From positions 1 to 64,000 of the forward strand of contig NZ_JMME01000014.1 of assembly GCF_000686945.1 (NCBI RefSeq): a DNA stretch of 64,000 bases. The letters run 5' to 3'. Source of the stretch: Selenomonas sp. AE3005 (GTDB lineage Bacteria; Bacillota; Negativicutes; Selenomonadales; Selenomonadaceae). Positions 13,477 to 63,653 of the stretch are shown piece by piece. Below the pieces are notes generated by a model that was given only the letters and a program-made list of their open reading frames with translations, did not search any database and was not told where the DNA came from. The position numbers and the translations under genes are program-made. The stretch's first letter is position 1, and the number at the start of each line of letters is the position of its first letter.

Positions 13477-15159
13477 TTGCAGAATAAACAAGTACGAATG
13501 AGCTTGGCTATATTGGCAGGTTTTTTCATAATAATGTATGTGGCTAATGCCTGGATGCCCATGTACAGGGATGATTACTGGCACAGTGTTATCTGGCGTA
13601 CCGGTGAACATTTGCAGTCCATGGGAGATGTTATGTATTCCCTGGAACGCTATTACATAACCCATGGTGGGCGGCTGGTGAGTTTCTTCTTCCAGTTTTT
13701 CTTTATGTGGGTAGGCAAATTTTGGTATAACTGGGCCAATGCTTTTGTGTTCTGTGCGATGCTGGCCGTTATGCTGATGCATTGCCGCCGTGACTGGCAG
13801 TTTTTGCGTGAGCCCAAGGCGCTGCTCTTAATGGGGCTGTTTTCCTGGCTGGGAATTTCGCATTTTGGGGAAGTAATCTTATGGTGCTGCGGTTCTGCTG
13901 TTTATATGTGGACCGGATTGCTGGCGGCTATTTTTCTGCTGCCTTACAATGTTTTTCTGGCAGGCAATATGAAAGGCACGCAGTGGTGGCTCATGCCGGT
14001 CATGTTTATTTTGGGCATGATTGGTGCCTGCTCGGTGGAAAATCTGACTGTTACCACGTCCCTGCTGGCCGTGTTATGTACGTACCTGGCTAAACGCCGC
14101 GGCCTGCTTAAGGGCTGGATGATTACAGGGGCTGTCGGTTCCATTATCGGCACAGTGGCCTGCCTGTTTTCACCGGGTAATCAGCAGCGTATTATTGATG
14201 ATGAGGACCGCTCCTGGTTGTTCCATTTCCTTAATCAGATTCCGGGCAACCTGGAAATGATTATGTATATGATTCCCATCATTTTGACGCTCGTTCTGGC
14301 TTGCCGCATTTTGTTTATGGAGGCGGCACGCAAGCGCGGTCTGGAAGTTCCGGAAACCAGCCAGAGCCCCAGCAAACATTTTGTTTTACTGGGCTTTATG
14401 CTTTTGAGTTTAGTATCATACTCCACCAACGGTTTTATGTCAAATATCATCGAGGCAGCCATTGTCAAGGTACTGCTGGTTCCCATCGGTTTGGGCGACC
14501 CGTTGACGCTGGAGCACTTCAACAATCTTATGGAGAGCTTGGAAGAGGTTCTGCTGTATGTGCTGGCAGTGGCCTGGGTATATCTGGTGACGATTGAACG
14601 CACTGGCCTGTTTAAGGACAGAATCCGTTCCTTGAAACAGCAGATTACCTGGAAACAGCTGGCAGCTGACTTCCCGGAACTGCGTTATGGTGCGTTCCTT
14701 CTTGGCCTGGCTTTCTTTAACAATTTTGTCGTGGTAGGCGCACCGTCCTTCCCTGGGCGTGCATTATACAGCTCTTCGGTTATTTTCATCATCGGTGCGG
14801 TGGTTATCCTGCGGATACCGGCAGTGGCAAAAGTATTGCTGGAAGGCGATGCGGCTAAGATTTTGCGCCGCGGCGGACTGTGTATTGTGGGCTTTATCAT
14901 GATTGCTACATTGGCGGTAATGCATAGTATTTGGCAGGAGGACGCTATCCGTGTAGGGCATATTGCTTATGAGGCCAATCGCGGCAATCTTGTAGTAACG
15001 CTGCCGCCAAGTGCGATTCCGGAAAGACGCCGGGTATTGCGTCATATTGCTTATGATGATTACGATAATGGGTTGACGCGCATACATGTATGCACTTATT
15101 TCGGTATAAATGATGTTATTTTGGACCCCAGCGTGCGGCTGGAAGATATAAAACATTAA
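13477..15159 (+). CDS. Polytopic membrane protein, DUF6056-like (glycan-related)
   Basis: 560-residue integral membrane protein with about ten or more hydrophobic segments. The N-terminal loop YRDDYWHSVIW and the following HGGRLVS fit the DUF6056 family, whose members often lie in surface-polysaccharide contexts; I recognise the family only from these features, so the assignment is tentative. The start is TTG 13477 after AGGAGG. The C-terminal ~60 residues are soluble. It has its own promoter and a strong terminator (15186-15222). A role in glycosyl transfer or polymer export is inference. Confidence 0.65.
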   Translation: MQNKQVRMSLAILAGFFIIMYVANAWMPMYRDDYWHSVIWRTGEHLQSMGDVMYSLERYYITHGGRLVSFFFQFFFMWVGKFWYNWANAFVFCAMLAVMLMHCRRDWQFLREPKALLLMGLFSWLGISHFGEVILWCCGSAVYMWTGLLAAIFLLPYNVFLAGNMKGTQWWLMPVMFILGMIGACSVENLTVTTSLLAVLCTYLAKRRGLLKGWMITGAVGSIIGTVACLFSPGNQQRIIDDEDRSWLFHFLNQIPGNLEMIMYMIPIILTLVLACRILFMEAARKRGLEVPETSQSPSKHFVLLGFMLLSLVSYSTNGFMSNIIEAAIVKVLLVPIGLGDPLTLEHFNNLMESLEEVLLYVLAVAWVYLVTIERTGLFKDRIRSLKQQITWKQLAADFPELRYGAFLLGLAFFNNFVVVGAPSFPGRALYSSSVIFIIGAVVILRIPAVAKVLLEGDAAKILRRGGLCIVGFIMIATLAVMHSIWQEDAIRVGHIAYEANRGNLVVTLPPSAIPERRRVLRHIAYDDYDNGLTRIHVCTYFGINDVILDPSVRLEDIKH

Positions 15160-15185
15160 ATATGCAGGGGAATATACCCTGAGAG

Positions 15186-15222
15186 AAAAATCTGTTGACG
15201 AAAAGCGTCAACAGATTTTTTT
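15186..15222 (+). terminator. Strong intrinsic terminator
   Basis: A 15-bp perfect stem (15186-15200 / 15206-15220, central GACG-AAAAG-CGTC) ends in a run of T. It closes the membrane-protein transcript immediately before the 602-nt non-coding element. Confidence 0.95.
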
Positions 15223-15824
15223 ATTGCAGTTTGACGGTCAATACCTGCTTTATTTTATTTGTTTCAGCTCAGTCGGGTGGAGGTGGTAATACTTTTCGCT
15301 GTTGCACTGAATGACCCACCAGCAAAAGTTTGGTCTTTTCCAGCTGCATGCGCCGGCAAGCAGTCGGCGCGATGGTTCAGCTCAATGTCCAGGGACTGTT
15401 GTTTGTGGGCCAGTCCTCACTGCGTTCGGACAGTCGTTCCACTGCGAAAAGCATCACCACCTCCGCCCTAAGCGACGTCCGTGTAAAATGATTCTTTCTC
15501 AGTGACAGGTAACAAGCACATCGATGTTCTTGTTACGGGAGAACGGGTTCGTGGCAATTGTACAGGCCGTTTGTGGGGGCGAACGGGGGAGTGATTTTTA
15601 TGCGGGGAGCGACTGCCTAAGCGCAGCGAAGGCCGGCACACTGTTGGGCTTAGCTAAGCAACTACGCTGAAAGGAGCGCCGTTGGCCTGCCCGGCGCAGG
15701 TAACTGGACAGCAGTATTTTACGAGGTGTGTCGTTTAGCGGAGGCAGAAAAATTACTCCCCCGTGAACCCCGTGCACGTATTATCGGGATAATTTTTAGC
15801 ACGAACTGACCGTCAAAATGTAAT
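15223..15824 (+). ncRNA. Large structured non-coding element, copy 1 (602 nt)
   Basis: Non-coding block nearly identical in length to 62921-63523, about 85% identical by eye. Its ends pair: ATTGCAGTTTGACGGTCAAT (15223-15242) with 15805-15824, 18 of 20 positions including one G-U. Internal helices seen: 15275-15299 with 15444-15468; 15584-15599 with 15748-15763; hairpin GCGCCG/CGGCGC near 15350; GTAACAAG/CTTGTTAC near 15510; GCGCCG/CGGCGC near 15685. Between copies, pair 15589-15758 is G-C here and T-A in copy 2. G-U pairs mostly favour the + strand as the RNA, but two A/C mismatches (15290, 15293 side) do not. Short reading frames inside are not conserved. No promoter is obvious before this copy; ilvB has its own promoter after it, so it is not an ilvB leader. 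ROOL, OLE or another ornate RNA class, or a mobile element with inverted ends, remain possible. Confidence 0.8.
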
Positions 15825-15916
15825 TTCTCTGTGTGAATAGAATTTAGTATTTCATAAATATTTTTGCTTGTACTTGCTGCCTAGTGCCGCTTTATAAGTA
15901 TAAATGAAAATGTTCG

Positions 15917-15946
15917 TTGTAATATTGTATACAAATAGTGTATAAT
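15917..15946 (+). promoter_or_regulatory. ilvBH promoter with palindromic operator in the spacer
   Basis: -35 TTGTAA (15917-15922), 18-bp spacer, -10 TATAAT (15941-15946). The spacer holds the perfect palindrome TTGTATACAA (15925-15934), placed where a repressor would block RNA polymerase. The leader to ilvB is only ~45 nt, too short for a leader-peptide attenuator or T-box. Confidence 0.7.
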
Positions 15947-15998
15947 AATTAGTGGATTATTATATCAACTGTAAACAATTTGGGGAGGGCTGGCTTTG

Positions 15999-62902: not shown

Positions 62903-62920
62903 GAGGGAGAACTTCTTTAA

Positions 62921-63523
62921 ATTGCAGTTTGACGGTTAATGCCTGCTTTATTTTATTTGTTACAGCTCAGTGGGGTGGAGGTGGTAATACTTTTCGCTGT
63001 TTCACTAAATGTCCCACCAGCAAACGACTGGGCTTTTTAGCGACTTTGCGCCGGGCAGGCCAGCGGCGCGATTATTCATCATAGTATCCAGGGACTGTTG
63101 TTTGTGGGCCAGTCCTCACTACGTTCGGACGGTCGTTCCACTGCGAAAAGCATCACCACCTCCACCCTAAGCGTCGTCCGTTTAAAAGGATTCTTTCGCA
63201 ATGACATGGAACAAGAACATCGATGTTCTTGTAACGGGAGCAACGGATTCGTGGCAATTGTACAGGCCTTGCCGGGGGCGAACGGGGTAGTGATTTTTAT
63301 GCGGGGAGCGACTGCCTGAGCGCAGCGAAGGCCGGCACACTGTAGTACGCAGCTAAGCAACTACGCTGAAAGGAGCGCCGTTGGCCTGCCCGGCGCAGGT
63401 AACTGGACAGCGCTATTTAACGAGGTGTGTCGTTTAGCGGAGGCAGAAAAATTACTACCCCGTGAACCCCATGCACGCATGAACGGGTTACTTTTAAGAA
63501 CGTATTGACCTAAAAACTGCAAT
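62921..63523 (+). ncRNA. Large structured non-coding element, copy 2 (603 nt)
   Basis: Full-length match to 15223-15824. Ends pair (62921-62942 with 63502-63523; 19 of 22 positions, two G-U). Main helices: 62973-62997 with 63143-63167, where TCCACCC makes the outer part fully paired; 63283-63298 with 63448-63462 region, where T63288-A63457 replaces the G-C of copy 1; GCGCCG/CGGCGC near 63050; a perfect 22-bp palindrome centred on ATCGAT near 63218; ATGC-AC-GCAT at 63471-63480, which is GTGC/GTAT (two G-U) in copy 1. The most variable part is about 63015-63085. A promoter lies directly upstream. No terminator is seen at its 3' end. Confidence 0.82.
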
Positions 63524-63653
63524 TCATCGCAGCCTCCTAAGCATAGGTGATAAGGAAATAACTTAAGTCGGTGGTTTGCAGCTTATGGCTTGACTTATGG
63601 AGTTTTCCTAGTAAACTTACAAGTATATTTTCCGTTGATAAGGTGTGCTAATT

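Follow-up and report, generated by a model that had tools for sequence, protein, structure and literature searches.

A repeated inverted dimer of structured units in Selenomonas that looks like a so far undescribed type of mobile element

The element at positions 15223-15824 of the window (the whole stretch of 64,000 nt that was analysed, part of the 2.82-Mb draft genome of Selenomonas sp. AE3005, G000:C11) is an inverted dimer: two homologous units, one on each strand, are read away from a palindrome at its centre. It has the look of a mobile element of a kind so far undescribed. It is probably a REPIN-like mobile repeat that is non-autonomous; its unit would function as a single strand, folded as RNA or ssDNA, and an enzyme supplied in trans would move it. 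An earlier note on this DNA had proposed selection on RNA shape and had compared the size with that of ornate RNAs such as ROOL or OLE. What it observed was confirmed and extended, and its interpretation is partly supported. Selection on a fold is borne out, whereas a single ornate RNA of ~600 nt on the plus strand, of the ROOL or OLE kind, is not supported: there was no Rfam match, and we found two outward-reading units, ~36 copies, terminal inverted repeats and variable site occupancy. A twin-unit structured mobile repeat takes its place. The copy number, the inverted dimer, the terminal inverted repeats as unit ends and the adjacency to terminators all lay beyond the earlier note's view.

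The second full-length copy that had been claimed is present at 62920-63524 on the same strand, and is 88% identical to copy 1 over almost its entire length (the estimate had been 85%). A search of the same genome with window positions 15215-15830 as the query gave 47 matches, which were joined into ~36 places. Twenty eight of these are near-full copies (at least 554 nt); among the remainder one contains an assembly gap, an insertion sequence of 1.5 kb divides another, and six (L031, L032, L034-L037) each lack one inner hairpin domain. As to the claim that no reading frame is conserved, copy 1 is overlapped by no ORF of at least 80 aa, and copy 2 contains a 93-aa minus-strand ORF with no counterpart of such length in copy 1.

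An element profile matched all 116 loci (those left after dropping 12 locus ids that were gapped, interrupted, internally deleted or duplicate) on both strands, with weaker-strand E values of 2.9e-11 to 1.8e-71, because of the inverted duplication. In an alignment of 19 copies, the left half (minus strand) is homologous to the right half (plus strand) over 166 matching consensus columns. The features of the two copies in the window are as follows.

15186-15222, plus strand: intrinsic terminator of the upstream gene, its T-run abutting the element
15223-15824, no strand: copy 1, full element, inverted dimer of two units
15223-15241, plus strand: left terminal inverted repeat ATTGCAGTTTGACGGTCAA, where the left unit, read on the minus strand, has its 3′ end
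15270-15474, minus strand: left unit core (outward strand minus)
15275-15299/15444-15468, minus strand: left unit P1
15315-15319/15405-15409, minus strand: left unit P3
15350-15370, minus strand: left unit P4
15413-15431, minus strand: left unit P2
15513-15532, no strand: central dyad CAAGnACATCGATGTnCTTG, 20 bp, highly conserved, about which the dimer is symmetrical
15572-15774, plus strand: right unit core (outward strand plus)
15583-15603/15744-15764, plus strand: right unit P1
15615-15633, plus strand: right unit P2
15637-15640/15727-15730, plus strand: right unit P3
15676-15697, plus strand: right unit P4
15806-15824, minus strand: right terminal inverted repeat (CTGACCGTCAAAATGTAAT on the plus strand)
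62920-63524, no strand: copy 2, full element, orientation as copy 1
62968-63173, minus strand: copy 2 left unit core, with P1 at 62973-63000/63140-63167; outer limits by homology to copy 1
63271-63473, plus strand: copy 2 right unit core, with P1 within 63270-63302/63443-63475; outer limits by homology to copy 1

The consensus element runs from AAATTGCAGTTTG to CAAACTGCAATTT. The duplication is inverted about the central dyad, which makes each terminal repeat the 3′ end of one of two related units. The 13-mer end AAATTGCAGTTTG was found in G000 at 25 exact and 27 one-mismatch sites, against none for a reversed control. Their positions place 24 of the exact sites and 17 of those with one mismatch at the ends of elements (41 in total). 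The other 11 of the 52 lie outside the element, the sole exact one where a coding frame begins. The four of these 11 that were inspected have no second end or unit nearby (own genome, up to one mismatch). By eye, no target-site duplication is consistent over 104 flanks; a possible one of 7 bp occurs at a single locus (L009).

Each unit of ~200 nt is closed by a long helix, P1, inside which a junction carries helix P3 and the small hairpins P2 and P4. A helix search without an energy model, run on 104 distinct copies from 15 genomes (the 116 loci minus 12 that failed to span the model), returned the stems drawn in the earlier note and the small inner hairpins as seven of its top eight helices; the eighth (15631-15633/15678-15680) lies outside the fold. 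Both long helices of the copies are genuine inverted repeats. In a core alignment of 60 units (left and right, 15 genomes), 18 of the 30 pairs show double changes, 97.4% of cells are paired vs 83.3% when shuffled, and the covariation score is 0.415 vs 0.168 shuffled, with slid structures scoring 0.03-0.11. Left and right units often have different base pairs at the same place (T-A vs C-G, A-T vs G-C). Moreover, the change that the note had called compensatory, at pair 15589-15758 (G-C in copy 1, T-A in copy 2), recurs. Of 50 sequences, 42 have letters at both columns of this pair (375-544), and these read GC 35, TA 5, AT 1 and AC 1 times. Double changes were also seen at 26 of 30 pairs in an alignment of 29 matches (score 0.570 vs 0.155) and at 26 of 29 pairs in one of 33 matches from other genera (0.695 vs 0.177); both were fitted to the model structure and hence lean towards the model, their slid controls reaching at most 0.134, and three rows of the 29-row alignment score below 25 bits, one being a unit's antisense.

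A tree-based covariation test gave 12 pairs at E ≤ 0.05. Six of these are standard pairs in at least 93% of cells: four belong to the fold, one neighbours a fold pair and the other is 15443-15640. The remaining six are not base pairs and reflect clade-specific changes; the fold therefore rested on the alignments of 60, 29 and 33 rows. Covariation in these three strongly supports selection acting on the nucleic-acid fold, as the earlier note had proposed for the shape of the RNA. Positions 15443 and 15640, which join the two halves and lie outside the fold, covary as GC/TA/CG (E 0.03 under the tree-based null) and may form a tertiary or inter-unit contact. In one left unit (L100:929-1147, G005) hairpin P2 contains a 13-nt tandem duplication.

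Folded whole, the element shows no strand preference (-299.7 vs -300.4). The left half folds better on the minus strand (-147.7 vs -130.8 kcal/mol) and the right half on the plus strand (-158.5 vs -138.3), a bias similar to that of a control, the RNase P RNA of the same genus (19 sequences, -107.4 vs -92.9). This per-half test was substituted for a count of pairs possible on both strands (78 GT vs 62 AC), which had first pointed to double-strand DNA, because the RNase P control behaved alike (19 vs 14) and the count was thus non-discriminating. Two A/C mismatches in helix 15275-15299/15444-15468, which the earlier note counted against a pure plus-strand reading, become G.U on the minus strand, where the left half is RNA-like; the columns concerned (20-188 and 23-185) read GT in 90 and 91 of the 104 left units. 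On the outward strands, G.T and A.C cells number 124:17 in the genus set, 16:5 in a second set and 23:5 in the other-genera alignment, the last count omitting two weak antisense rows (the covariation counts use all 33). However, three wobble columns supply 114 of the 124 G.T cells of the genus set; elsewhere G.T is 10 vs A.C 17, against 51 vs 33 for RNase P beyond its six wobble columns. The strand signal therefore rests partly on few positions. Folded singly, the outward strand is the better one in 89/104 left and 95/104 right units; the figures are 19/31 for distant units and 12/19 for RNase P, so that distant units show no clear preference. Taken together, these predictions favour a folded outward single strand as the functional form and do not decide between RNA and ssDNA. 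By rank alone, the best promoter-like positions of both strands lie at the centre (15525 on plus, 15520 on minus; mean percentile 0.97).

Copies tend to lie beside terminators. An intrinsic terminator within 60 nt, its T-run facing the element, was found at 19/28 own copies and 43/76 copies of other genomes, compared with 351 of 2713 intergenic points of the window (13%). In most cases with a terminator the stem ends ~6-13 nt before the element core (40 copies viewed). The adjacency is weaker in other genera (10/41 3′ sides, 3/25 5′ sides). The terminators at many copies (e.g. 15186-15220) share a consensus near CCGTTGAC..GTCAACGG followed by a T-run, which resembles the TTGAC-GTCAA dyad in the element ends. 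The genes flanking the copies are tandem in 32 cases, convergent in 29 and divergent in 13 (n=74), vs 46, 15 and 15 in the control (n=76). Distribution around the chromosome gave a Rayleigh p of 0.014 in G010 and 0.63 in G017.

Twenty four orthologous site pairs were recognised by both flanks, which are ~80-99% identical. The element identity at these pairs is within ~0.04 of the genome-pair average; at one such site it was 0.712, where the average between the two genomes was 0.711 and those within each were 0.865 and 0.942. On this comparison, copies within a genome appear to be homogenised, by concerted evolution or by replacement. A site ~1 kb from rnpB (L057/L318/L330) holds a copy in G000 and G003 and none in G001, G008, G009, G015, G018, G019, G020 and G021. 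The empty site retains ATTGCAG, the terminal 7 nt of the element, in the carriers G008 and G020, whilst this is missing in the non-carriers G009 and G018; in this single case it is possibly an excision footprint. The sequences suggest that copies are or were mobile, with one clean empty site to point to.

The copies are themselves entered by insertion sequences. In G000 an IS110-family element (PF02371, PF01548) interrupts an own copy within hairpin P2 (L033, G000:C3:156811-158905). Five copies in G017:C1 (L303, L304, L305, L306, L307) contain a 1711-bp insertion sequence, 99.9-100% identical among them, at the same stem site or at its mirror position in the other unit, and both orientations occur. 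Its DDE transposase matches PF05598, PF13751 and PF01609; by our reading it is IS1182-like, and it appears to target the repeat. The same contig contains three short forms of ~280 nt (L308, L309, L310) without element positions ~146-459.

The search for further copies that the earlier note had called for succeeded in the own genome and the genus and, by BLAST, went no further. Matches were found in 15/60 genomes of the genus, family and class, including the own one: 14/21 other genus members and 0/38 genomes beyond. A pattern scan of named genomes gave at least 105 stretches, all those listed coming from Selenomonas ruminantium strains or MAGs; strain HD4 is one of the carriers. With a covariance model built from the unit (R1), 380 Negativicutes genomes were then searched under strict filters, few candidates being scored per genome. 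Units were found in 27 genomes, all of one family and none outside it at that sensitivity; three of the 27 are marginal matches (G155, G252, G278; E 8e-5 to 9e-4) on which we do not rely. The carriers comprise 17/22 genus members, including G014 and G015, which have no BLAST match, and 10 genomes in other genera of the family; at this first-look sensitivity the remaining 5/22 genus genomes are without a unit. A second model (R2) recovered 114 units in nine R1-positive genomes. Among R2 neighbours up to 600 nt apart, 9 pairs are head-to-head (6 in G031, 2 in G176, 1 in G286), none tail-to-tail and 9 tandem.

Units in other genera of the family thus occur as singles, tandems and head-to-head pairs, and the centres of four of the latter measure 30-56 nt. 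P1 varies widely in sequence in G031 and G176, with its complementarity largely kept. In G014, 4 of 7 units inspected lie within an element of 727-751 nt that has different ends, AAACTGGAA...TTCCAGTTT (allowing one mismatch), and a left half made of another long-stem sequence; of the remaining three units, two lack one end and the third spans 889 nt. Ends of the AAACTGGAA/TTCCAGTTT type are absent at both G015 units. In genus g11, a CGATGTAAAC-like motif starts the 3′ flank of several units (L370, L374, L385, L387, L394, L395, L399) and is perhaps the true 3′ end of the unit. Three element patterns had no match in viral contigs, nor did the whole element in phages. One plasmid record carries it, pSR1 (NC_002139.1, L242), in a copy cut at element position ~456; this 4.7-kb S. 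ruminantium record also contains two radical-SAM genes and a HAMP gene, and may be a chromosomal fragment.

Scanning the window against all of Rfam 15, as had been recommended, gave nothing on the element at the gathering threshold, whether ROOL, OLE, GOLLD, HEARO or group II introns. At a relaxed threshold, region 15100-15990 gave three sub-gathering matches to short sRNA families, all over the upstream terminator, two of them extending up to 38 nt into the element. Fourteen distant-unit loci yielded no unit match at the gathering threshold. No description of the element was found in the literature searched, which lay mostly outside subscription journals. A systematic ncRNA discovery study reports Selenomonadales and Veillonellales motifs upstream of gltD and Negativicutes motifs before ldh-type genes (PMC8632094), and the element is not described in the parts of that paper available to us. 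The available parts of another paper give Negativicutes only a passing mention and do not describe it (PMC6429828), and those of a MITE review do not contain the word Selenomonas (PMC10969869).

Lastly, four enzyme families were considered as partners, and none tracks with the carriers. The Y1 transposase (PF01797) has no match in 6/14 other carriers (G001, G002, G005, G010, G011 and G017, with G005 only 86% complete), and in G000 is represented by just a fragment with an in-frame stop. Reverse transcriptase (RVT_1) is absent from G000 and 8/14 other carriers, and IscB is present in 5/15 carriers, G000 not among these. TnpB exceeds the cut-off in 12/15 carriers (no match in G001 and G011, below the cut-off in G010) and also in 4/7 genomes without a BLAST match; both it and Y1 occur in element-free genomes. 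TnpB is not required and may be an occasional helper. Two tnpB genes lie less than 1 kb from element copies (G017:C1:2387242-2387445 and G013:C19:198662-198862), either by chance or as part of a neighbouring IS605-type element.

The REPIN-like repeat that we favour is built from the folded unit. In S. ruminantium two units are joined head to head (~600 bp), and each strand has one unit in working orientation. The unit would act as a folded single strand, either as a transcript or as ssDNA that is recognised when transposition takes place, the role proposed for REP hairpins; an enzyme supplied in trans would copy it into new sites. The copies of one genome would be kept alike by gene conversion or by repeated re-insertion, and no host function need be assumed. 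We are doubtful of a bolder version, a protein-less mobile element whose two homologous RNAs, structured and read out to its borders, could also be strand-specific folds of ssDNA, the folded strand directing both where copies land and how alike they stay; this would be an RNA-centred system new in one family.

The element could instead be a divergent pair of homologous noncoding RNA genes with a function in the cell, multiplied and kept alike like rRNA genes, with mobility secondary. The G.U bias and folding asymmetry of the outward strands, similar to those of RNase P, would fit such genes, as would covariation across several genera, the sites retained between species in the 24 orthologous pairs, the 9 to 0 excess of head-to-head over tail-to-tail neighbours and the central position of the top promoter-like sites on both strands. 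However, the short centres in other genera leave scant space for two promoters, which weakens this reading; moreover, many units are single or tandem, 5/22 genus genomes lack a unit at R1 sensitivity, and six own copies do without one hairpin domain. We regard it as unlikely.

Two DNA-level readings seem less probable still. If the element were an ordinary MITE, a DDE transposase would move its terminal inverted repeats, and the interior would be passively inherited or arise from hairpin template switching. The 13-bp end AAATTGCAGTTTG, which 41 element ends in G000 carry with at most one mismatch, and the intergenic, multicopy distribution in both orientations are what a MITE would show, and transcripts of MITEs form stable stem-loops according to the part of the review available (PMC10969869). 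This is nevertheless very unlikely: internal pairs are kept by double changes across genera whose ends differ, single and tandem units exist, and no transposase partner was found in the searches made, whilst template switching leaves the conserved G.U positions, the junction sequence and the strand asymmetry unexplained. Least probable of all is a structure of double-strand DNA (a cruciform or protein-binding palindrome) with a BIME-like nucleoid or termination function. The 20-bp central dyad, the adjacency to terminators and the insertion of IS elements at element stems speak for it, some IS elements being known to land in REPs. Against it stand the outward-strand asymmetry of each half and a chromosome distribution inconsistent between G010 and G017.

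The favoured mobile repeat is built on a strongly covarying, multi-helix unit of ~200 nt, present in up to tens of copies per genome in several genera, that forms a structured family without an Rfam 15 match or a known partner protein or activity. Its head-to-head doublets, terminator targeting and concerted evolution offer a way to test how elements without a protein spread and are maintained, and raise the question of whether units several times larger can also move in the REPIN manner. For annotators, several draft contigs of S. ruminantium terminate inside the element.

Several known systems share part of this anatomy. ROOL, OLE and GOLLD are likewise ~600 nt, noncoding and structured, whereas the element consists of two ~300-nt units on opposite strands, in tens of copies per genome and with no Rfam match. 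In HEARO and the omega-RNA of TnpB a structured unit reads outward to the end of a mobile element; the element shares the outward-reading unit that ends at its border, but has no Rfam match and its carriers do not consistently possess an IscB or TnpB nuclease. Group IIC introns insert next to terminators, as the element does; this candidate was rejected, there being no Rfam intron match at the gathering or relaxed threshold and no RVT_1 in G000 and 8/14 others. With bacterial MITEs it shares the lack of an ORF, terminal inverted repeats, intergenic position, dozens of copies and mobility, and it differs in its conserved, covarying multi-helix interior, its single-unit forms and the absence of a related IS in the searches made. 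MRSC-65-2 is a mobile or repeat structured motif, presumed selfish, described in the available part of its report as a single long stem in diverse phyla with dozens of copies per genome and covariation (PMC11109978); the element resembles it in copy number, in covariation and in being presumably selfish, and differs in having a multi-helix unit found in one family of the class searched. As far as the parts available show, REPINs are REP sequences in inverted doublets for which hairpins in ssDNA or mRNA are predicted, with a link to RAYT transposases (PMC3116915), and REPs are palindromes of 20-40 bp (PMC3733652), whereas the unit here is ~200 nt with several helices. The element further differs in its long-lived site occupancy with concerted evolution and in having no consistent cognate Y1 (RAYT), with 6/14 other carriers lacking a Y1 match. 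Like REPINs and BIMEs, however, it is non-autonomous and extragenic, and its repeated structured unit occurs as inverted doublets, singlets and clusters. In architecture, REPINs are the closest parallel, in likeness of working rather than in membership.
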